Shown piece by piece: positions 5,663-63,146 of a DNA stretch of 64,000 bases. The notes beneath the pieces were generated by a model. It had not been told where the DNA came from, ran no database searches, and saw nothing but the letters and a program-made list of their open reading frames with translations. Numbering within the stretch: the first letter of the stretch is position 1; the number at the start of each line of letters is the position of its first letter. This DNA is from Lactobacillus sp. (GTDB lineage Bacteria > Bacillota > Bacilli > Lactobacillales > Lactobacillaceae), in contig JAKVNR010000001.1 in the NCBI GenBank assembly GCA_022483245.1, positions 620,001 to 684,000 on the forward strand, read 5' to 3'. The translations under genes were made by a program, and so were the position numbers.

Positions 5663-7516
5663 TTATTCTTCGTGTGCTTTCACGTCAGCGTCAGCTTCTT
5701 CATTTAGGCGTTCGTTGTATTCTTCCGTGCCCTTCTTCGCCTTCGGCGTAACTTCGATGCCTAATTCTTCCAGCTGTAAATCTTCAACTGGAGCTGGGGC
5801 ATGCATCATTGGTTCAGATGCACTCGAGTTCTTTGGAAAGGCTAAGACGTCTCTGATGTTGTCTTTTTCAGCCAGCATCATGGCAAACCGGTCTAAGCCA
5901 ATTGCCAGCCCGGCGTGTGGCGGGAAGCCCATGTCTAAAGCATCCAGCAGGAAACCGAATTGCTTGTAAGCGCGTTCCTTGCTGAAGCCTAACGCCTTCA
6001 GCATCTTTTCTTGAATCCAGCGTTTGTGAATTCTGATTGAGCCGCCGCCCATTTCGTCACCGTTCATGACAATGTCGTAGCTGCGGGCGTGTGCCTTGTG
6101 CGGATCAGTGTCCAGCAATTTAATGCCTTCATCATCTGGCATCGTGAATGGGTGGTGAGCAGCAATCCATTCGTCATCGCCTTCGTCGTATTCAAACAGT
6201 GGCCAGTCAACGACCCAAACAAAGTCAAAGACGTGAGCTGGAATTAAGCCCATTTCTTTGGCGATCGTACGCCGCAAGTAGTCAAAGGAGTCACAGCAGA
6301 CTTTCCATGGAGCGGCAACAAACAGAATCAGTTCGCCATCAGTTAAGTTAAATTCCTTCTTCAAGCCGGCTTGTTCATCATCGCCCAAGAAGCGGCTGAT
6401 TGGGCCAGTGAACTTGCCATCTTCAAACTTAGTCCAAGCCAGGCCCTTAGCGTGGTAGCGCTTGATGTAGTCTTGCATGGCATCAATCTTCTTGCGTGAG
6501 TATGCTTTAGCGCCGTCTTTCACGCAAATTGCCTTGACGCAGCCGCCATCAGCAATCGCGCCTGAGAAGACCTTGAATTCACTGTCTTTAAAGATTGGGC
6601 TTAAATCATGAATTTCCATTCCAAACCGGGTGTCAGGCTTGTCTGAACCGTAGCGGTTCATGGCATCAGTCCAAGTAATCCGCGGAATTGGCAGCCTCAG
6701 GTCAATGTTCATGACATCTTTCATAACCTTTTGCAGCATCTTTTCGGTGATGTCTTGCACGCCCTTTTCATCCAGGAAGGAAGTTTCCATGTCAATCTGG
6801 GTGAATTCTGGCTGCCGGTCGCCCCGCAAGTCTTCGTCCCGGAAGCAGCGGGCAATCTGGTAGTACTTGTCAAAGCCGGCACCCATCAAGAGCTGCTTGA
6901 AAAGTTGTGGTGATTGCGGCAAAGCGTAGAAAGAACCTGGGTAGATCCGTGATGGAACTAAGTAGTCACGGGCACCTTCTGGGGTGGATTTGCCTAAGTC
7001 TGGGGTTTCAATGTTGATGAAGCCATTTTGGTCAAAGAATTGGTGGATTGATTCAACAATCTTAGACCGCATGATCAAGGCCTTTTGCAAAGTTGGCCGG
7101 CGCAAGTCCAAGTAGCGGTACTTCAACCGGGTTTGTTCGCTGGCGTTTAAGTCATCCTTGATTTCAAATGGCGGGTTTTTCGCTTCATTTAAGACCTTGA
7201 TTTCGCTAGCATCAACTTCTACTTCACCAGTCTTCATGTCTGGGTTGACGGATGAACGCTTAACAACCTTGCCTTTGACTTGCAAAACGTACTCATTGCC
7301 CAGGCTAGTTGCAATATCCATTAATTCTTTGCCTGAGTCTTGGTTGACAACGATCTGCACGATCCCTTCCCGGTCACGCAAATCGATAAAAATCAAATTG
7401 CCCAGGTTGCGGACGCGTTGCACCCATCCGTACAAGTTAACGTTTTGGTTTTCGTATTTCGTGGTAATGTTGCCACAGTAGTCTGTTCTTGTTTCCATTC
7501 TAATTACCTTCGTCAA
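5663..7516 (-). CDS. aspS: Aspartate--tRNA ligase
   Basis: Class II aminoacyl-tRNA synthetase of 617 residues, bacterial type. The N-terminal OB-fold anticodon-binding domain contains [10 protein letters not shown]. Motif 2 ([14 protein letters not shown]) and motif 3 (GLAIGLDRF) of the catalytic core flank the long GAD insertion typical of bacterial AspRS. It charges tRNA-Asp in the cytosol. It is the second gene of a hisS-aspS operon, 8 nt after hisS, so it should be controlled by the T-box upstream of hisS. Length and motifs are normal, and the C-terminal tail is acidic. Confidence 0.98.
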
Positions 7517-7524
7517 TTATGTGT

Positions 7525-8808
7525 TTATTTAAATTGCTCCAGCACCGCTTGCAAATCAGCGGCTTGTTCCAGGTCAAACTGAATTTGCTGGCCATCAGCT
7601 AGCCGTTTGATCGTCAGCTGACCCTTAGCTAAATCCTTAGCACCAACTGTTAAAACATACTTAGCTTGCAAACGGTCAGCCTTGCGGAATTGGCCTTTCA
7701 GCTTCTTTTGGTCGACATCATACATGCAGGAGAAGCCTTGGCCGCGCAAGCTTCGGGCTAGTTCAACGGTCTTTAAGGTTGTGCCTTCACCAATATTAGT
7801 GATGAATACATCAATGCCAGCTGGTGCGAACAAATCTGGATTTTGCTTTTGCAAAACTAGCAAGAGCCGTTCTTCGCCGATTCCAAAACCAACAGCTGGC
7901 GTGTGCGGGCCAGTGAATTCTTCAACCAAGTGGTCGTACCGGCCGCCGCCTAAGATCGTGGTTGGTGAAGCCCACAAATCTTGATCAGCCACCATAAATT
8001 CAAAGATCACGCCGGTGTAGTAATCTAAGCCCCGCACCAAGTCGTTATCTAGAACATACTTAATACCCAAATGATCTAATTGATCAGTAATGGCTTTAAA
8101 GTTGGCTTTAGATTCGTCATCTAAGTAATCGACAATTTTTGGTGCATTTGGCAAAAATTGCTGATCTTCTTCTGCTTTTGAATCCAAAATCCGCAATGGG
8201 TTTAAACCCAGCCGCCGCTGCGAATCTTCTGATAATTGACCTTTCAGCGGAGTGAAATAGTCAACCAACGCATCATGGTAAGCTTGCCGCACTTGCTGGT
8301 TGCCGAGTGAATTGATGTGCAATTCATAGTTTTTCACGCCTAAAGCGGCCAGTAAGTCGTGACCCAGCACGATTGTTTCAACATCAGCTAACGGATTGTC
8401 TGAGCCGAAGCTTTCTACCCCGATTTGGTGGAATTCACGCAGCCGGCCAGCTTGCGGGCGCTCATACCGGAAAGTCGGTTCAATATAGAAGACATTGAAC
8501 GGCTTGACAATTTGCGGGCCATAGAGCTTATCTTCAACATAAGCCCGCACTACCCCAGCAGTGCCTTCAGGCCGCAAGGCGATGTGGCGGCCGCCCTTGT
8601 CGTTGAAATCATACATTTCTTTTTCAACCACGTCGGAAGTTTGGCCACTCGACCGGGAAAAGATTTCGTAATTTTCAAAGGTTGGGGTCCGAATTTCTTG
8701 ATAGCCGGCTAAGGCAAAAAACTTGCGGGCTTGATGCTCAACACGTTCCCACTTGCCAGATTCGCCTGGCAGAATATCGCTAGTGCCTTTTGGTCGTTGT
8801 ACTCTCAT
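7525..8808 (-). CDS. hisS: Histidine--tRNA ligase
   Basis: Class II synthetase of 427 residues. The ORF opens at 8844, but the conserved N-terminus [15 protein letters not shown] starts at 8808, 7 nt or so after AAAGGATG, so the first 12 codons of the ORF are rejected. Motif 2 ([16 protein letters not shown]) and the histidine-specific [10 protein letters not shown] and GGGRYDHL motifs are present. A C-terminal anticodon-binding domain occupies roughly residues 325-425. It is the first gene of the hisS-aspS operon and follows a T-box leader. Confidence 0.98.
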
Positions 8809-35799: not shown

Positions 35800-35937
35800 A
35801 ACAAAAGCACTACCTCTCGTACAGATAGTGCTTTTTGCGTTGTTTGATGCATAGACCTGATTCAATGCGTCGCATACTTAGTATATCATGAATTGGCTTT
35901 TAAACAATCAAATTAGAGGGGGATCTATTTTGATAAA
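35800..35937 (-). ncRNA. Orphan Fst antitoxin RNA unit, identical to antitoxin 2
   Basis: It contains a terminator (35803..35836, loop CTCGTAC) and, from 35821 to 35937, a sequence identical base for base to 36243..36359. That includes the repeat GACCTGATTCAATGCGTC and the promoter TTGTTT-16 nt-TATACT. No toxin is attached on its left side. It could supply a second dose of the antitoxin for toxin 2. Confidence 0.75.
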
Positions 35938-36363: not shown

Positions 36364-38695
36364 TTATTCATGCTTGCGGCGGTTTGTGCCAGCTAAACCA
36401 AGCAGGGCTGACAAACCAGCTGCTAACCAGCCAAAGATAGCGAGGTTATTTCCACCGTTGGTTTGCGGTAACGATTGCTGGCTTTGTGCCTTAACAGTTG
36501 TACCTTGGTGGCCTGGAACTGTTGAAATACCAGTTGGTTGAACAGGATTAGTTTGATCAGTTGAGCCATTATCTTTTGACCCGCCTTGATCGGTCTGATT
36601 ATCACCATCATCAGCCTTGTTCTTGCTGTAAGTAATGGTAATTGTGACGTCTTGCGTATCGTAAGTAACAGTCTGTGCTGCTACTTGGGTAATGCTTGGA
36701 GTGTAGCCGTCGATTGTTGGAGCATCGAATTCAGGCCATTCGCCAGTTGACCAATCGCCCCAAGTTGTTTCGCCTGTAGAAAGGTCCTTAGTCCCAGTTC
36801 TGGTCAAGGTAACTGTTTGTTTGGTAGTGGAAGTTTCACCGGTAATCGGGTCAACCACGTTGATCGTCCGGGTGATAGTTTTTGAATCAGAAACTGGTTC
36901 AGTAGTTGGGGTATCTGGTTCTTGCGGTGTATCCTTTACAGCTTTGATCGAAATCTTCCCGCCTTCTACAGCAGGTAACTGACTTAAAGGCGGAATGAAT
37001 CCAGCACCAGCATAGCCAATCACCGGATTATCTATTTGATAGTCTTCAGTACCTGTGTAAGTATTTAATTTAACATCGTTCAACAAGTAATTTTCATAAT
37101 CTTCTTGTGAACATGGTGCTAAATAGTACTCGTCCTGTTTATACGCAATCGTCTTAAACTTCATGGTCATCCCAGAACCACTGTAAAATGGACTACCATT
37201 CATCCCACTCGCTGAACCATCATTTCCTCCATCTGCGTAGACTACTATTCCAGCACCTTCATAAGTACTATTAGCTAAATCAATCACGTGGTTCACATGC
37301 AAGCCATTACTGGTAGTAGTTTCCAAGTGGTAGCCCTCAGGAAGAGTGAACGATTTTGACCCAAACATTAAGTCCAAATATTGATAAGTACCAAAAGCTA
37401 TCCCTGCTTCTTGATGCTGAGGTGCTAAATAGCCAAATGTATCTGAACTATGGCTGACATCGCTAGGCAGCAAAGACGAAGCAGTATCACTAGTTAAAGC
37501 GTTGCCCCAAACATCAGTGCCCTGGAGTTTTCCTTCGTCAATCAGTTTTTGAATTTGGTTGACCCATTCTTGGTAGGTATTGCCATACATACTAAAGGTG
37601 TTATCAACATCAACGCCATCTGCGCTAATTGAACCATCTTGATTCATCCAAGCAAACATGTATGGAACACCTTGATATTCTTCTTTAAAAATAACATCGC
37701 TAGTTACTTGGTCTTTAATCGCTGTCCCAAAAATCAAGCCATATTGCTGATCAACAAGTGTGGTTTCAGTCCCATCTGGTGCTTGAGCAACAACTTCATA
37801 ATGCTTCCAGGAAGATATTCTAGAATCCTTTAAGTAATCTTGTGTAACATCTTTTTGACCATGAACTAAGCTAACTTTAAACGTATCATTAGCCCAATCA
37901 TCAGTTACAGAAGTATACAGATCTTGCGTCGTCCCATCAGGTTTAACTAAACTCAGCGAACCATTATAACTACTAAAAGTCTGACTGGCAGTTCTGGTTG
38001 AATTGGTTTCATAATCCGTGCTGTAACGCCAACCGTGTTTATATAAGTCATCAGGAATATCAAAATTGCGAGCATTTTCTTCGTTAGATAGTAAGAAGAA
38101 ATTGCCTTTTGCCGCATCAACTGAGCTAGTATCTAATACATTTCCTTCTGAATCAACGAAGTTAATCGGAATATTTACTTTATTAGTATCACTGGCACCT
38201 GCAGCTTTTACTTTAACTTGCTTGTCCTTAGTAGCAACAGCTTTAGAATCACTTAATTCTTTAGTTGCTTTAGCTTTAGTTTGCTCATCTGACTTACTTT
38301 CTTCATCACCAGTAGTATCTTTTTGCACCCCCCCCATTTTCAATTTTCAGTGTAGTTTCAGTATCAGTTGCAGCAGCCTGAGTCTGCTCAGCGTGAGCAG
38401 CTTTTTGTTTTTTAGTGGTAGCATCTGCTGCAACGGTTTCAGTCTCAGCACTAGCTTTGTTCTCTGCAGTAGTCGCTTTACTTGATGGGTCAACAGTTTC
38501 TTTTTTACTTGAAACTGCTGTTTGAGTAACATTTGTCGTAGTGTCTGTTGTCTCAGCCTTAACTTGCCCTGGTCCCGCAACCAAAAAGGTCGTTGCCAGC
38601 GCAACCGATGCTAAACCAACTGACAATTTGCGTAATCCAAAATGTTGAATACCCTCGCTTGTATAAAGCTTAGGTTTATGAAATTTGCTAAACAT
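36364..38695 (-). pseudogene. Adhesin C: LPQTN-anchored surface protein, frame broken at a G8 tract
   Basis: The track shows two ORFs (38306..38695 and 36364..38343) that are one gene of about 777 codons. The N-part is a YSIRK-like signal peptide (FGLRKLSVGLASVAL, cleaved near VKA-ETT) and a Thr/Glu/Lys-rich stretch. The C-part is a large adhesin domain (about residues 160-560), a Mub-type repeat (ITRTINVVDPITGE; TWGDWSTGEWPEF) and LPQTN-GGNN plus helix and NRRKHE. G8 at 38328-38335 shifts the frame; seven G's would restore it. The SD is itself a G7 run (TTAGGGGGGGATCTATC-ATG). It is a tandem paralogue of adhesin D. It may be phase-OFF rather than dead. Confidence 0.85.
38328..38335 (-). repeat. 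Poly-G (G8) tract in adhesin C, out-of-frame state
   Basis: AAT GGG GGG GGT GCA runs into TGA after seven more codons; with seven G's the reading AAT GGG GGG GTG CAA joins the long downstream frame. Confidence 0.88.
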
Positions 38696-38884: not shown

Positions 38885-39000
38885 TAGCAATGACAAGTAA
38901 ACAATAAAAGCACTATCTATAGGACAGATAGTGCTTTTTGCGTTGTTTGATGCATAGACATAATTATGCGTCGTAGGCGTAATATATCATGAATTGGCTT
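38885..39000 (-). repeat. Decayed Fst unit 3 (toxin tail plus antitoxin region)
   Basis: AGCAATGACAAGTAA is a toxin tail. The terminator 38906..38939 has the usual stem and the loop ATAGGAC. GTTGTTTGATGCATAGACA and ATATATCATGAATTGGCTTT match the 36243..36359 unit, but the repeat and -10 (TATATT) have diverged. It follows the stop codon of adhesin D and supplies its only visible terminator. Otherwise the 38696-39031 gap holds only the adhesin C leader. Confidence 0.75.
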
Positions 39001-39031: not shown

Positions 39032-41451
39032 TTATTCATGCTTGCGGCGGCTAGTGCCAGCTAAAGCAAACAGCGCTGACAAACTAGCTACTAGCCAACC
39101 CAAGATAGCGAAGTTATTTTCACCGTTGGTTTGCGGTAAAGATTGTGCAATTTGCTTGTTAGTAGTTTTGGCCTGACTAGCACCAGCAGCTTTGGCAGCT
39201 TGACCAATATTACCAGCTGACTTGCCATGATGGACGTTGGAAGAACTGCCACCATTCGAGCCGTTGTGACCCGGCTTTTGACCGCCTTGGTCGTCTGTAT
39301 TGCTGCTATTCTTAGTGTAGGTAATGGTAATCGTTACGTCATGAGTATCTGAAGTTACAACTTGATCTGGTACAACAGCTTGACTTGGAGTATAGCCTTT
39401 AAATTCAGGTGCATCGAATTCAGGCCATCCGCCAGTTGACCAATCGCCCCAGGTTGTTTCGCCCGTCGAAAGGTCCTTAGTGCCAGATCTAGTCAAGGTA
39501 ACAGTTTGCTTAGTAGTGGAAACTTCGCCGGTGATTGGATCGACGACGTTAATATTCCGAGTGATGGTTCTTGAATCGGAAACTGGTTCGGTTGTTGGGG
39601 TTGGTGGAACGTCAGTGTCATCTTTAACGTATTTGATGACGATCGTTTGCGAGGCAGGTAGCTTGCTTAGGTCCGGTACGTAGCCATCGCCTTTGTACCC
39701 AGTTAAGACACCAATGCTTGTCGTAAAACTTTGAAGTCCAGCAAGATTTAATAAATAGTTTTCATAATCTTTCTCTGACAATGGGGCCAAATAATAGCCA
39801 CCGTTTGTACCATCATCTTTCTCATAAGATATACGATTAAATTTTAACGTTAAGGATGTAGAGGAACCAGATTGAAATGGTAAGCCTGTATTATTGTTTG
39901 CGGATACTACTATGCCCGTCCCCTCATAACTACTATTTTTTAAATTAATGGTACGATTGACAAATAATCCATTTCCATTAGAAATTTCTGCATGATAGCC
40001 AGCCACTTTAGGAATGGAGAAGGAAGTTGATCCCAGCATTAATTCATTGCAATTACCATTAATAAGAAAACCAGCTTCATGCTTATTACCTTCTGCTAAA
40101 TAATTACCCGATGAATATGTGCCAGAAATCATTTCATCAGCAATTGTTTCGGCTTCTGAGGCCTGTAACGGATCTGAACTCCAGCGACTCGTCCCTTGCA
40201 ATTTTCCATCGCTGACTAATGATTTAATTTGTTGGCCCCAGTTTTGATAACTATTGCCATACATAGAAAAGATATTAGGGATATTCTGAAGATCCACATA
40301 TTTGTGGGTTGTTTCATCGTAGACCTTTAAGCCAAATTGATTTTCCTGTGGATTATCTTGTTCATTAGGATCATAGCCTTTTTGCTTGGTAACCTTGGTA
40401 TCAGGGTTGTTATCAACTAAATCTTCAACTACATTGCCATAGATAATAACAAAATGTTGTTCCTTTAATATTTTATTGCTTCCATTGGGTAATTCAGCGA
40501 TAACTTTGTAATCACGCTTAGCTGCAATCTCCGGGTCGCTATAGTACTGGTCAGTAATATTTTTCTTACCGTGAACTAATTGAACTTTAAAATGATAATT
40601 GTCCCAAGCATCTGAAACAGGTTCGCTACTATAACTGACGTTCGTACCGTCTTCTTTCACCAAACTGACAGATTGCTGATTATTTTTTATTTCTTGACTA
40701 GCTGTATGATACGAAGTTGTCCAATAATCGGTACTATAACGCCAGCCTTCGTCATACAGAGTTTGCGGAATATTAAATTTTGCAGCATATTTTGAATCTG
40801 TTGGATCGAAATTTTCGTTCTTGGTTGCATCTACAGAATTACTATCATCGAGAACATTGTTATCCGAATCCATAAATTGAATTTTAACGTTAACAGTATC
40901 TTGGCTACTTGCTGATAATGCCTTTAAGACCCGTTTTTTGATAAAGCAACAGCCTTCGATCCAGCTAATTGTTCTTTCGAATTAATCTTTTTTTCATTAG
41001 AAGATGATAGGGTATTGACTTTCTCAGCGTCTTTAGAATCACTAGATAGCGCTTTTCTAGAACTATCAAAAATTAAGTCTTTTTGGTTATTTGCTGCAAG
41101 AGTCGTTAATTCGGTCGAACCTTCTTTTTTTAGACCATCATCCTGTTTATTAGAATCATTTGCGGCTCCCCGATTTTCATTAGAAAGAACGGTTGACTTT
41201 TTAGCGATAGAATTTTCTTGATTTGTTTCTGATCCAGAAGCATCTCCAGTTTGTTCATTAGGTACAGCCATTTGACTAACACCAGTTTCTGCAGAAGAAG
41301 CTGTAGTCTCAGCCTTAACTTGCCCTGGTCCTGCTACCAAAAAAGTCGTTGCCAGTGCAACAGACGCTAAACCAACTGACAATTTGCGTAGTCCAAAATG
41401 TTGTACACCCTCGCTTGTCTTGAGCTTAAGTTGAGTATTTTTAGCAAACAT
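39032..41451 (-). pseudogene. Adhesin D: LPQTN-anchored surface protein, frame broken at an A6 tract
   Basis: The ORFs 40924..41451 and 39032..40873 are one gene of about 806 codons, paralogous to adhesin C. The signal peptide (FGLRKLSVGLASVAL) is nearly identical, as are the Mub-type repeat (ITRNINVVDPITGE; TWGDWSTGGWPEF) and LPQTN-GENN anchor. The central ligand-binding region has diverged. A6 in the coding strand (T6 at 40934-40939) gives TCA AAA AAC GGG TCT TAA. Seven A's would give AAA CGG GTC TTA AAG GCA, joining to VNVKIQFMDSDNNVLD, which matches adhesin C. The SD is a G6 run. Inactive or phase-OFF here. Confidence 0.83.
40934..40939 (-). repeat. A6 tract at the frameshift of adhesin D
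   Basis: One additional A restores the frame shared with adhesin C. Confidence 0.8.
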
Positions 41452-41644: not shown

Positions 41645-41745
41645 AGCAATGACAAGTAAAAGCTGCCACTTAACATGCACGTATGTTAATCGCAACTAGT
41701 AAAAAATAAAAGCACTATCTCTAGAACGGATAGTGCTTTTTGCTT
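41645..41745. repeat. Decayed Fst unit 4
   Basis: A toxin tail (AGCAGCAATGACAAGTAA), a spacer stem and the terminator 41708..41741 (loop CTAGAAC, one stem change) remain. The toxin's start and helix are gone. The rest of the 41452-41811 gap is the leader of adhesin D (G6 SD) and shows nothing else. Confidence 0.65.
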
Positions 41746-41939: not shown

Positions 41940-42040
41940 ATTCTGATTACCTATTTTAAATAATCGTACTTTTATTTCTTTTTGACAAAAACGCCCCAGA
42001 GAAATTAATATCCGAGGCTTTTTTGTGTTGCTCTATATAT

Positions 42041-42097
42041 TTTCAACTCATCGCACCGATTTTCGTCGGTATAGCACTAAAACTATTTGATTGGTAG
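42041..42097 (+). pseudogene. Fst toxin remnant with nonsense codon
   Basis: In-frame codons read FQLIAPIFVGIALKLFDW and then TAG, where toxin 5 has R-W-H-E-S-H. The following bases still match the family tail. There is no SD or leader in front, and no terminator of the family follows. It is a dead copy. Confidence 0.7.
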
Positions 42098-42329
42098 CAC
42101 GACAGTCACGCAATAATAAGTAACAGTTGCCATTTACCCGCACGCTTATCATTGCAAGTTAAGTATACCATGTTTATTTGATTCGATTACCATTCTTAGC
42201 TAAGTATAGTCTAAGAGGTTTTCCAATTTTGACTGTAAATTGCTAGGCTAATAACCTATTGCATCCTATATTTTGATACAATTATTATCGGCATCTGGCA
42301 TACGCCTCCCCGAAAGGAGGTGAACTCGC

Positions 42330-42540: not shown

Positions 42541-42608
42541 AAGTTATTATAGCATGAAAACCAATTAGAAACACAAGTTTGAATTCATTATCTATCAAAC
42601 TCATCTTT

Positions 42609-42761
42609 ATTACGCTCATCGTCGGTTTAGCTTTGCAGCTATTTGATTATTTGCTCAAAAATCATGGCCATGATAAATAGCCAGAGCCTTTGAGCACACA
42701 CGCTTGCAAATTGTAACAAGCGAAAAATAAAAGCACATCTCTAGGACAGATAGTGCTTTTT
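42609..42761 (+). pseudogene. Fst toxin remnant without start, plus damaged terminator
   Basis: Codons 42609..42680 read ITLIVGLALQLFDYLLKNHG and end HDK-stop, but no SD, leader or start codon lies in front. The terminator (42729..42761, loop CTAGGAC) has lost two bases from the left arm. Closest to toxin 3. Confidence 0.7.
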
Positions 42762-42825
42762 GTGTGACTTATGTCATCGACATATGCAAATTTATTACAA
42801 ATTAGGTATACCATGTTTTGATATT

Positions 42826-42959
42826 TATAGCATTAAAATGGATTATTTACTCAATAATCATGGCCACGATAAGTAACCAGTGCCATTGGGTACACACGTT
42901 TGTGCATTAAAGCAAGCGAAAAATAAAAGCACTATCTCTAGTACAGATAGTACTTTTTT
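42826..42959 (+). pseudogene. Fst toxin remnant (tail only) with terminator
   Basis: After a deletion only DYLLNNHGHDK-stop (42841..42876) remains. The terminator 42925..42959 (loop CTAGTAC) carries one change. Nothing else is seen in the 42500-43035 stretch. Confidence 0.65.
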
Positions 42960-43035
42960 GTGTAGCTTTATGAATAATTTTTCCAATTATACGTTTATTG
43001 TAACAAGATAAAAATAAAATCATTATTACCTGCAT

Positions 43036-60345: not shown

Positions 60346-60397
60346 ATTTACTGTTTATAAAGTTCAAGGAAGTGTCCGATTCAGCTATCTTCTTTGA

Positions 60398-60403
60398 TAT
60401 AAT
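60398..60403 (+). promoter_or_regulatory. -10 box of the toxin 4 mRNA
   Basis: TATAAT in the conserved leader TTTGATATAATTAACGCTGGCAACTGACAT-type context, followed by the CCTCCCTTGAAAGGAGG hairpin. Confidence 0.7.
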
Positions 60404-60450
60404 TAACGCTGGCAACTGACATACGCCTCCCTTGAAAGGAGGTGAATTTG

Positions 60451-60549
60451 ATGCATGATATTTTCGTATTCATCGTTGCTCCGCTTTTAGTCGGAATAAC
60501 TCTTAAGTTATTTGACTGGTGGCTCAGCAGTCACGGCAACGATAAGTAA
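60451..60549 (+). CDS. Fst-type type I toxin, copy 4
   Basis: 32 residues: MHDIFVFIVAPLLVGITLKL, then FDWWLSSHGNDK. It keeps the IVAP-VG helix and Trp-Trp. The SD lies in the leader hairpin. TGATATTTTCGTATTCATCGTTGC at the start recurs as TGATATTTTCATATCCGTTGC at 60647-60667. A CGCTCAT/ATGAGCG stem and the terminator 60595..60628 (loop GCCCACT) follow. Confidence 0.88.
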   Translation: MHDIFVFIVAPLLVGITLKLFDWWLSSHGNDK

Positions 60550-60591
60550 CGGTTGCCATGAGCCCACACGCTCATAGTTGCATGAGCGAAA

Positions 60592-60668
60592 AATAAAAGC
60601 ACTATCTGCCCACTAGATAGTGCTTTTTGTGTTGTTTGATACAAATGATATTTTCATATCCGTTGCAC
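60592..60668 (-). ncRNA. Antisense antitoxin RNA 4
   Basis: Minus-strand TATAAT (ATTATA at 60673-60678), start near 60666, runs over the start-region repeat to terminator 60595..60628. Confidence 0.74.
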
Positions 60669-60816
60669 CTTTATTATAGATGAACAAGCATAAAAAGCCA
60701 AATCTTAATTAAAACGCGCTACCACAATATAAAATAATAAGCCAATTAATGAGCCTGTTTTGATATAACTAACGCTGGCAGCTGACATAAGCCTCCCTTG
60801 AAAGGAGGTGAATTCA

Positions 60817-60918
60817 ATGTTCCAGGACTTTTTCAAGTTCGTCGCTGCCCCGATTATTGTCGGTATAGCACTTAAGCTATTTGACCGGTGGCACGAAAGT
60901 CATGGCAACGATATGTAG
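60817..60918 (+). CDS. Fst-type type I toxin, copy 5
   Basis: 33 residues: MFQDFFKFVAAPIIVGIALK, then LFDRWHESHGNDM, ending in TAG. The leader -10 is TATAAC (60764-60769), with the usual SD hairpin. Arg-Trp-His replaces Trp-Trp-Leu after the helix. A CATTCATC/GGTGAATG stem follows, then terminator 60966..60999 with the loop CTGTAAC. Confidence 0.86.
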   Translation: MFQDFFKFVAAPIIVGIALKLFDRWHESHGNDM

Positions 60919-60962
60919 CAGTTGCCTTCGGCTCGCACATTCATCAGTTGCGGTGAATGTAA

Positions 60963-61037
60963 AAGAAAAGCACTATCTCTGTAACAGATAGTGCTTTTTG
61001 CGTATTCAGTGCAGAAAATATTTTTAAATTCGTTGCA
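60963..61037 (-). ncRNA. Antisense antitoxin RNA 5 (diverged repeat)
   Basis: Minus-strand -10 TATACT (AGTATA at 61043-61048), start near 61036. The repeat on + reads GAAAATATTTTTAAATTCGTTGC, a poorer match to the toxin 5 start (GGACTTTTTCAAGTTCGTCGC) than the orphan unit at 61570. Confidence 0.7.
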
Positions 61038-61112
61038 TGTTTAGTATAACAGGACAAACGAAAATAAACATAATTAAAATCTGAATTATAATGTTTTTGC
61101 ACTAAATTAAAA

Positions 61113-61150
61113 TTCTCCCTATGTCGGTTGCAGACTAGCCTTATTTGAAA
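61113..61150 (+). repeat. Possible Fst toxin remnant
   Basis: TATGTCGGTTGCAGACTAGCCTTATTTGA resembles the helix codons GTCGGTATAGCACTTAAGCTATTTGA of toxin 5. Short and uncertain. The rest of 61060-61240 shows nothing. Confidence 0.35.
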
Positions 61151-61241
61151 TCGCGATGGTTAAAACCAGTTTGAGTGCATGTTGCTTGCTAGTAAGCCAG
61201 ATCCCATATATATTAAGCATATCTTGAAAGGAGAAGTTCCG

Positions 61242-61484
61242 ATGGTTAAAGTCAAAATCATAAAAATTGGTCATTCCAAAGTTCTTCCCGTTCCTAAAGC
61301 ATTCAAAACCATTAGCACTGAATATGAAGCCTTTTTAGGTAGAGATGGTGCGATTACTTTCTTGCCGGTGACTCTCAATCCCTTTGACAATAAAGACTCT
61401 ATTAAAAAATATGGCAAATTCAATGGCGATACTACTTGTTTCATCGACGTTGGGTTTACTGATAAAAAATATGAAGACCTATAA
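61242..61484 (+). CDS. AbrB/MazE-like antitoxin-type DNA-binding protein, without toxin partner
   Basis: 80 residues from ATG at 61242 after TGAAAGGAGAAG; the 21 upstream codons of the ORF are rejected. The N-terminal swapped-hairpin pattern (VKIIKIGHSKVLPVPKAFK) fits SpoVT/AbrB antitoxins, and the C-terminal half is variable. No toxin ORF follows. It sits between two units of the Fst cluster, so it may be a solitary antitoxin or an autoregulator. Confidence 0.65.
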   Translation: MVKVKIIKIGHSKVLPVPKAFKTISTEYEAFLGRDGAITFLPVTLNPFDNKDSIKKYGKFNGDTTCFIDVGFTDKKYEDL

Positions 61485-61569
61485 TGAGAGAGCAAAATTT
61501 TAAAATTACAAGGAGACGGCCGATTCAGCCGCTTTCGACCCGTACCTTCGTCAGTTGAGACAAACGTAA

Positions 61570-61644
61570 AAGAAAAGCACTATCTGTAAGAGAGATAGTG
61601 CTTTTTGCGTGTCCAGTGCATAGGACATTTTCAAGTTCGTTGCA
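61570..61644 (-). ncRNA. Orphan Fst antitoxin RNA, matching toxin 5
   Basis: Promoter -10 TATACT (AGTATA at 61650-61655), start near 61643, terminator 61573..61606 (loop GTAAGAG). The repeat AGGACATTTTCAAGTTCGTTGC matches the toxin 5 start at about 20 of 22 positions. The upstream toxin region survives only as a spacer (CCTTCGTCAGTTGAGACAAACG). Flanks also match unit 5 (CACACGAAAATAAGCATAGTT). Confidence 0.7.
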
Positions 61645-61796
61645 TACTCAGTATAACATGCCACACGAAAATAAGCATAGTTAAAATCTGAATGGGAAAT
61701 TTTTCCTCACCAACCAACAAAAATCCCCCTACATTCATATATGCAGTGGTGTTAAAATGAACTTGTCATTGTGAGGAAATGGAAAGGAAGAATACA

Positions 61797-63146
61797 ATGA
61801 AAAAAGCATCGGCCTTATTAGGCTCTTTGCTGTTCAGTGTTGGTTTGCTGGCAGTCAGCGGTCAAGCTGTTAAAGCGGACACCGTTCAACCTGCACAAAC
61901 AACTGCCACTGAACAAGTCCAAACTACCCAAACCACTGCTGAGCAAACTGCAACTGATCAAACTACTGACCAAGTTGCTACTAACGCTCCAGCAGTTAGT
62001 CAACAGTCAACGACGCAGATCAACTACGTTAAAGGCTACGGCGTTAACCTGTGGCAATTAAACGCTGATCAATCAGTTTCTTGGACTGGCCGCCGTTTAA
62101 CGACTGGCACCAAGTGGAAGACTTTTGGCTACACTGATTTGTCTAAGAGTCAGCAGCGTGTTTACAACTTGGGCGGGAACCAATGGATTTACGCTCAATA
62201 CTTAGTTGACGCTGGTACGAAGCAAAAAGTTGCTGGTTACCAAGCTGCTAGTTCACAGACTAAACCAAGTGGCCAAACGCCTGCGCAAACAACTGACATT
62301 ACCCCAGCTGCTAACGGCACGGTCGGAATTGTTGGCTACCGTCCAAGTTAGGGGACTGTTTTATACAGTTTAAACGGCAATACTGCCACCCCAACTGGCC
62401 GCTTCTTGAAGAACGGGACCGCTTGGAAGATCGTTGGTTCTAAGACCATCAACGGCACTACTTACTACAATTTAGGCGGCAACCAATGGGTTAACGCAGC
62501 TTACATTGTTACTGGTAATGCCAACGGTGCTTACCGCGTTTTAAAGAGCAACCCAAGTTCTCGTGAATACTACACTAGTCAATACAACCCAGTCTTTGCA
62601 CCTTGGGGCTGTGCTTCTTCTGCTTTGTCCATGCTGATGAAGTATGATGGCAACTGGAAGAACGTGCCGGGCAATTCTGAAAAAGCTAAGTTGACCTATA
62701 TGCAAAACCACCTGCCACGCAACAAGGCTAACGGTGGTCAAGACGGTGATCCTTACACTGGTAGAGGCTTCAGCCGCGTAATTCTGTCATACCGGTTAAC
62801 TCAATATGCCCACAGCTTAGGCGACGCAAAGATCGTTGATGTTTCTGGCGTATCTTTGAGCGGAATTATTGATTTGATCAAAGGCGGCAAGCCAGTTCTT
62901 TACTACGGCTGGTCATCATACCAAGCTGGCGGTGCTCGCAACCACTGTAAAGTAATCTTCGGCTACAACGCTCACAATAATACTTTCCTGGTTCACGATC
63001 CGTTGTACCAATACAAGTACTTCTACCGTGGTGGTGGCGGTATGCGTGAAGGCGTCCGCAACGGTTACGACTTAGGCCCAATCGCTTGGGTTTCAGCCCG
63101 CACCATTGCTCGTGAATACGCAGGCAACGCATTAACCATTCACTAA
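61797..63146 (+). pseudogene. SLAP-domain secreted protein with C39-like peptidase domain, interrupted by in-frame TAG
   Basis: The ORFs 61779..62351 and 62406..63146 are in one frame; only TAG at 62349-62351 separates them. The start is ATG 61797 after AAAGGAAG. The signal peptide (MKKASALLGSLLFSVGLLAV) ends near VKA-DTV; a Thr/Gln-rich linker and two SLAP-like repeats (NLGGNQWIYAQYLV; NLGGNQWVNAAYIV) follow. The second half is a papain-like C39-type domain with WGCASSALSML (catalytic Cys) and GGARNHCKVIFGYN (His). Intact length would be 449 residues. TAG stands between YRPS and GTVLYS, where a sense codon is expected. The N-terminal product alone could still be secreted. Confidence 0.78.

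Follow-up and report, generated by a model that had tools for sequence, protein, structure and literature searches.

The window, that is the whole stretch of 64 kb of DNA under analysis, belongs to a Lactobacillus genome of 1,555,094 bases held in a single contig. Its species is represented by this one genome, and, of the relatives found, the closest one with a name is the MAG Lactobacillus sp. UW_TS_LAC6_1 (G082/L040), with 91% protein identity for the ATPase. Type I toxin-antitoxin units of the Fst type (par pAD1-like) form an array in the window and have one common palindromic terminator, AAGCACTATCT-loop-AGATAGTGCTTTT, near-perfect hairpins of this kind being found ten times inside the 64 kb and once more just beyond. 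Complete toxin units are located near 35.48, 36.04, 42.29, 60.41 and 60.78 kb, and genome position 1382272 holds one more; those of the toxins that were tested fit the type I Fst model of NCBI, and the toxin mRNAs of the array are covered by Rfam RefB11. On the toxin strand, the hairpin loops mostly read CTNNNAC or similar, whereas that of a toxin-less unit referred to below as OD reads GTAAGAG. Arrays of Fst units, like the Fst mechanism itself, are already known. Besides, degenerate Fst units (relic toxins, hairpins) were noticed at 38906-38993, 41708-41740, 42040-42160, 42600-42770 and 42830-42960, around genes for sortase-type surface proteins. Two large surface protein genes of the minus strand are apparently broken near their 5' part, at 38329-38336 and ~40873-40924, the first of these breaks lying at a run of eight C, a possible slippage or phase-variation site.

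Table 1. Features of the Fst units and of their surroundings, with positions in the window
Feature	Position	Strand	Remarks
Second solo antitoxin, OA	35803..35890	-	arm identical to that of antitoxin 2, loop different
Unit 4, complete (toxin 4 / antitoxin 4)	60393..60680	.	start-region duplex -38.1
Toxin 5 promoter, -10 box TATAAC with a TGA before it	60764..60769	+	compared with T1-T4 and the G082 units
Predicted toxin 5 mRNA (RNA I type)	60776..60999	+	predicted fold; weak Rfam RefB11 match at 60777-60964
DRa-like (upstream) repeat at the start codon of T5, GAATTCAATG	60810..60819	+	GTATTCAGTG in A5, GTGTCCAGTG in OD
Toxin 5 (T5), Fst-family type I toxin, MFQDFFKFVAAPIIVGIALKLFDRWHESHGNDM	60817..60918	+	NCBIfam NF033608, 33.8 bits (cut-off 26)
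Downstream repeat (DRb-like) of T5, predicted target of the OD arm, AGGACTTTTTCAAGTTCGTCGC	60824..60845	+	sequence match and duplex energy
Predicted antitoxin 5 (A5) RNA	60960..61036	-	start-region arm 61014-61036, pairing with T5 lost
Bidirectional terminator hairpin common to T5 and A5	60966..60998	.	loop CTGTAAC on + (60979-60985)
-10 box of A5, TATACT, extended -10 type	61043..61048	-	intact
MazE/PemI-like small protein, without adjoining MazF partner, convergent with the OD RNA	61242..61484	+	match to NCBIfam NF047400 under the cut-off (E 2.9e-6)
Remnant of the OD toxin 3' UTR	61526..61572	+	34/47 identical to the T5 3' UTR
Predicted solo antitoxin RNA OD, ~77 nt	61567..61643	-	arm 61622-61643 predicted to pair with T5
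OD terminator hairpin	61573..61605	.	loop GTAAGAG on + (61586-61592), CTCTTAC on -
-10 box of OD, TATACT, extended TG, as in A5	61650..61655	-	41/51 identity with the A5 promoter region

The leader of unit 5 is 92% identical to the leader of unit 4. T5 shows the features of a small hydrophobic toxin, with APIIVG (a PxxxG motif) and a W, and scores 30.8 bits with the Pfam model Fst_toxin, under the Pfam cut-off of 36. In the predicted fold of its mRNA, the 5' end pairs with the 3' UTR and the Shine-Dalgarno sequence is held in a CCTCCC/GGAGG stem. Sequence inspection reveals extended -10 boxes on both strands, and the terminator offers loops that are complementary in cis.

The unit OD has a different content. 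The remnant of a toxin 3' UTR found at its left end starts where the stop codon ends in T5, indicating that the toxin gene and the toxin promoter are missing; the loss of the toxin, already claimed in the preliminary description, is thus borne out by a homology with unit 5 that begins right after the toxin stop. On the antitoxin side, the extended -10 box TGTTATACT is intact. The same description had noted that the loops differ, being CTGTAAC in T5/A5 and GTAAGAG in OD on the plus strand, and this can be sharpened: the OD loop is apparently the usual one inverted, its reverse complement CTCTTAC fitting the CTNNNAC pattern. As RNA, the OD loop CUCUUAC would form at most three isolated pairs out of seven with the T5 loop CUGUAAC, and is therefore predicted to be unable to kiss it. 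The OD loop is also complementary to the A5 loop (GUUACAG) at 5/7 positions, so that it might touch the other antitoxin, not the toxin mRNA. Farther to the right, a gene for a secreted protein with C39-peptidase/SlpA domains (61797-63146) contains an in-frame stop at ~62349, and its homologue in UW_TS_LAC6_1 is uninterrupted.

The central claim of the preliminary description was that the antitoxin RNA of OD fits the start of T5 better than the adjacent A5 does. The sequences that it quoted for T5, OD and A5 are all present, at 60824-60845, 61622-61643 and 61014-61036, respectively, and the claim holds. The OD arm AGGACATTTTCAAGTTCGTTGC (61622-61643) is identical to the T5 sequence AGGACTTTTTCAAGTTCGTCGC at 20 of 22 positions, and the T5/OD duplex reaches -35.3 kcal/mol, which is in the range of cognate pairs, whereas T5 with the A5 arm GAAAATATTTTTAAATTCGTTGC (61014-61036) gives -20.1 kcal/mol, within the non-cognate range. 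When toxin start regions are crossed with antitoxin arms, the other five cognate pairs lie at -30.8 to -38.1 and the non-cognate ones at -9 to -26 kcal/mol. Net of the opening of both RNAs, the values are -10.4 for T5/OD and +1.2 for T5/A5, the other cognates having -11.2, -4.3, -23.1 and -8.6. In the same line, comparison with dinucleotide shuffles yields z = -5.3 for the OD arm (0/1000) and z = -2.1 for the A5 arm.

A chance match between T5 and OD can be ruled out. The joint pattern with up to three mismatches occurs in the 64 kb at the T5 and OD places only, for 0.01 expected, and the sites within three mismatches of the OD arm in the 1.56 Mb genome are the OD arm itself and T5. Moreover, T5 is the best target of this arm among ~56 Fst toxins. 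OD as the antitoxin of another toxin of the genome was rejected, the pairing being weaker in each case (T4 -25.5, T2 -24.0, T8 -23.4). The T5/OD match departs from identity at 2 of 22 positions, while the flanks of both copies have diverged by ~23%, a difference by which retention of the pairing beyond descent is not significant (simple binomial about 0.08).

A further role considered for OD is that of a terminator. The MazE-like gene lies directly before the OD hairpin, and its homologue in UW_TS_LAC6_1 (L040 ~7374-7585) likewise immediately precedes a solo Fst antitoxin and converges with it, so that the solo antitoxin hairpin may terminate the MazE-like gene in both genomes. To go further and suppose that OD was retained for this purpose, the antitoxin arm being a bystander, is nevertheless very unlikely: a terminator would keep neither the complementarity of the arm to T5 nor an extended -10 box on the opposite strand, and the solo arm of the relative matches T5 at -23.2 only.

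In A5, the loss of pairing is confined to the downstream repeat, so that the start-region complementarity usual for Fst/par pairs is gone from T5/A5, whereas the upstream repeat is still there; upstream of the start codon, A5 (ATTCAGTG against T5 ATTCAATG) even fits T5 better than OD (GTCCAGTG) does. The possibility that A5 serves a toxin located elsewhere, e.g. the MSNIFK toxin of the relative, which has the same loop CTGTAAC, was rejected: the best of ~56 toxins is still T5, at -21.8, leaving A5 without a good partner.

How unusual this situation is was evaluated on 53 complete units, parsed from the neighbourhoods of Fst hits in Lactobacillus and Lactobacillaceae after exclusion of three candidates (two without a convincing bidirectional hairpin and one promoterless relic). 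Over these units, the cis energy has a mean of -35.2 (sd 5.4), unit 5 being the weakest at -20.4; when it is left out, the mean is -35.5 (sd 5.0) and the weakest value -26.5, which places unit 5 at 3 sd. Of 35 toxins whose genome contains several units or a known solo antitoxin, none but T5 has a clearly better antitoxin in trans, the two other flagged cases being ties between near-identical units or a frameshifted toxin. Trans pairs at or below -35 are limited to T5/OD and T2/OA, both of which involve solo antitoxins of this genome. Another Lactobacillus Fst array (L157 / L083; G005:C1 ~1153600-1155000) comprises five hairpins, three toxins and one solo antitoxin, the latter with a break near the toxin stop codon, similar to that of OD.

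Since an antitoxin always matches its cis toxin fully in loop and stem, and since the upstream repeat of A5 is the better fitting one, A5 might still be the working antitoxin of T5 through these contacts, OD being redundant. This appears rather improbable, however, as strong start-region pairing is kept by all 52 other units and the net pairing of A5 with the T5 start is unfavourable. Besides, it is the start-region contact that blocks translation in pAD1 (PMC7472228), and the 3' part of SprA2AS alone gave no inhibition of translation (PMC6393315).

With regard to the origin of OD, the duplication proposed in the preliminary description is supported by 78% identity over 179 nt between 60919-61097, the part of unit 5 that starts just past the toxin stop and reaches a point upstream of the A5 promoter, and 61526-61704. 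This identity is spread over the 3' UTR (34/47), the hairpin (28/33), the arm (37/48) and the promoter (41/51), which points to OD being a copy of the whole unit minus the toxin and the toxin promoter. Recombination inside the hairpins of unit 5 and OD was rejected as the cause of the mismatch, the left part, the arm and the promoter being similarly diverged (72%, 77% and 80%); copying of the whole unit followed by divergence is therefore the simpler explanation for OD. Two other attempts to refine this history were abandoned: the segment left of OD (61498-61529) resembles the region upstream of a toxin promoter (60354-60385) too weakly, with 24/32 matches, to be taken as its old counterpart, and the solo arm of the relative, used as an outgroup to order the changes in A5, OD and T5, provides two informative third-position sites only, which is not decisive.

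The second solo antitoxin, OA, has another history. Its arm and flank, on the right of the hairpin, agree with unit 2 in 97 of 97 bases, while the left side is unrelated; the hairpin itself matches that of unit 2 at 30/33 positions, two of the three differences falling in the loop. This break of identity inside the hairpin suggests that the common palindrome served as a recombination junction, putting a new loop on an existing arm. Such a recombination appears clear for OA only; there it is the most economical account of the identity profile, and it would uncouple the loop from the arm.

Taken together, these data lead us to regard OD, with moderate confidence, as the trans antitoxin of T5, this being the best explanation for a duplicated copy of unit 5 next to an A5 that has lost its start match. 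According to the proposed scenario, units of the array would have been duplicated and reshuffled around their common terminator, and the copy of unit 5 would have lost the toxin and the toxin promoter while keeping the antitoxin RNA and its promoter; after the duplication, A5 would have lost its match to the T5 start region, and OD would have kept or acquired one. If OD is transcribed and T5 toxic, the 5' arm of OD would pair across T5 codons 3-10, just past the start codon, and block ribosome loading in trans, in a way comparable to SprA1AS and SprA2AS and without the terminator loops, whereas A5, with its loop and upstream repeat, would give at most a first contact. As to the partner rewiring put forward in the preliminary description, the part that stands is the displacement of the start-region fit from the cis antitoxin to OD, visible in the energies and in the outlier position of unit 5 among the 53 units; functional rewiring would be a possible consequence. 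In other words, the sequences, the homology, the duplication, the toxin loss and the energies with their outlier status are firm, and a functional takeover is of moderate probability.

The promoter of T5 opens another, less probable possibility. Its -10 box is TATAAC, instead of the TAYAAT of T1-T4 and the G082 units, so that transcription of T5 may be very low, leaving A5 to drift freely. Unit 5 would then be decaying: a promoter mutation would have cut T5 transcription and relaxed the selection on A5, whose arm drifted, and OD would be a relic without regulatory function, its likeness to T5 being due to descent. The tail of T5, which is W-H where nearly all relatives have W-L, is in line with such a decay, as are the changes in A5 relative to T5, mostly from G/C to A/T, and the frank relics of the same genome (hairpins at 38906, 41708, 42723 and 42925). 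However, T5 still has an intact ORF, start, Shine-Dalgarno stem, 5'-3' pairing and terminator, its HMM score places it among the better Fst matches in this genome, and A5 and OD have both preserved their -10 boxes. In addition, the A5 arm has no second-codon-position change relative to T5, which disfavours pure drift, although eight changes make this weak evidence.

The known systems bear on the proposed takeover of T5 by OD. The par system of plasmid pAD1 and the chromosomal par EF0409 of Enterococcus faecalis resemble unit 5 in having an Fst toxin, a bidirectional terminator, start repeats and a 5' Shine-Dalgarno stem, and in their convergent promoters, of which unit 5 carries candidates on both strands. 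They differ in that the downstream repeat of T5 finds its match in another, toxin-less unit instead of the cis RNA, and in that the T5 loop is CUGU, without a strict YUNR motif. Binding in pAD1 begins with the terminator loops, and the start repeats block the ribosome, one RNA making both contacts (PMC7472228). Against a takeover thus stands the loop of OD, which is not expected to kiss that of T5, whereas pAD1 binding starts at the loops; under this model neither RNA would be complete, A5 bringing the loop and the upstream repeat and OD the downstream repeat. A split pairing, with A5 for the loop and OD for the start, as the preliminary description had suggested, could be one way to reconcile the data with the pAD1 model, but would not be required. 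Indeed, in the Staphylococcus SprA1/SprA2 systems, the 5' arm of the antitoxin alone suffices for repression, that of SprA2AS both binding and repressing by itself (PMC6393315), so that OD could act alone and the split would be unneeded. Following the SprA model, OD alone should repress T5 and A5 should do so poorly. The likeness with SprA1/SprA1AS and SprA2/SprA2AS of Staphylococcus aureus, also members of the Fst family, lies in a 5' arm that acts in trans and, away from the terminator overlap, pairs at the ribosome-binding/start region; the difference is that SprA1 and SprA2 form intact, insulated cognate pairs, whereas the arrangement described here predicts a non-adjacent partner.

The Lpt system of Lacticaseibacillus plasmids also has an Fst-like toxin from lactic acid bacteria, convergent RNAs and a 24-nt complementary DR, and differs in consisting of single plasmid units, the available part of the source describing neither an array nor a solo antitoxin. 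More generally, an incomplete search of the literature returned neither a solo Fst antitoxin nor a toxin for which an antitoxin other than the adjacent one is the better match.

How the specificity of RNA antitoxins changes after duplication is an open question, as the paralogues tested so far are mutually insulated: RNA II of pAD1 gives no protection against RNA I of EF0409, which was attributed to differences in the repeats (PMC7472228) and is a precedent for specificity being set by the arms, and no cross-regulation occurs between the paralogous antitoxins of SprA1 and SprA2 (PMC6393315), a point against regulation of T5 by OD. A toxin whose best antitoxin is non-adjacent represents a natural intermediate in partner switching. 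On a broader and more tentative level, it is possible that a toxin-less duplicated antitoxin took over a neighbouring Fst toxin from its cis antitoxin, turning a plasmid-type cis addiction unit into a trans-controlled one, and that such swaps arise by recombination at the terminator palindrome, which would uncouple the loop, responsible for the first contact, from the arm responsible for repression. In this array, the two Fst contacts, loop and start region, fall on different RNAs, making their separate roles testable with native sequences, and in Fst arrays adjacency does not safely identify the cognate antitoxin.
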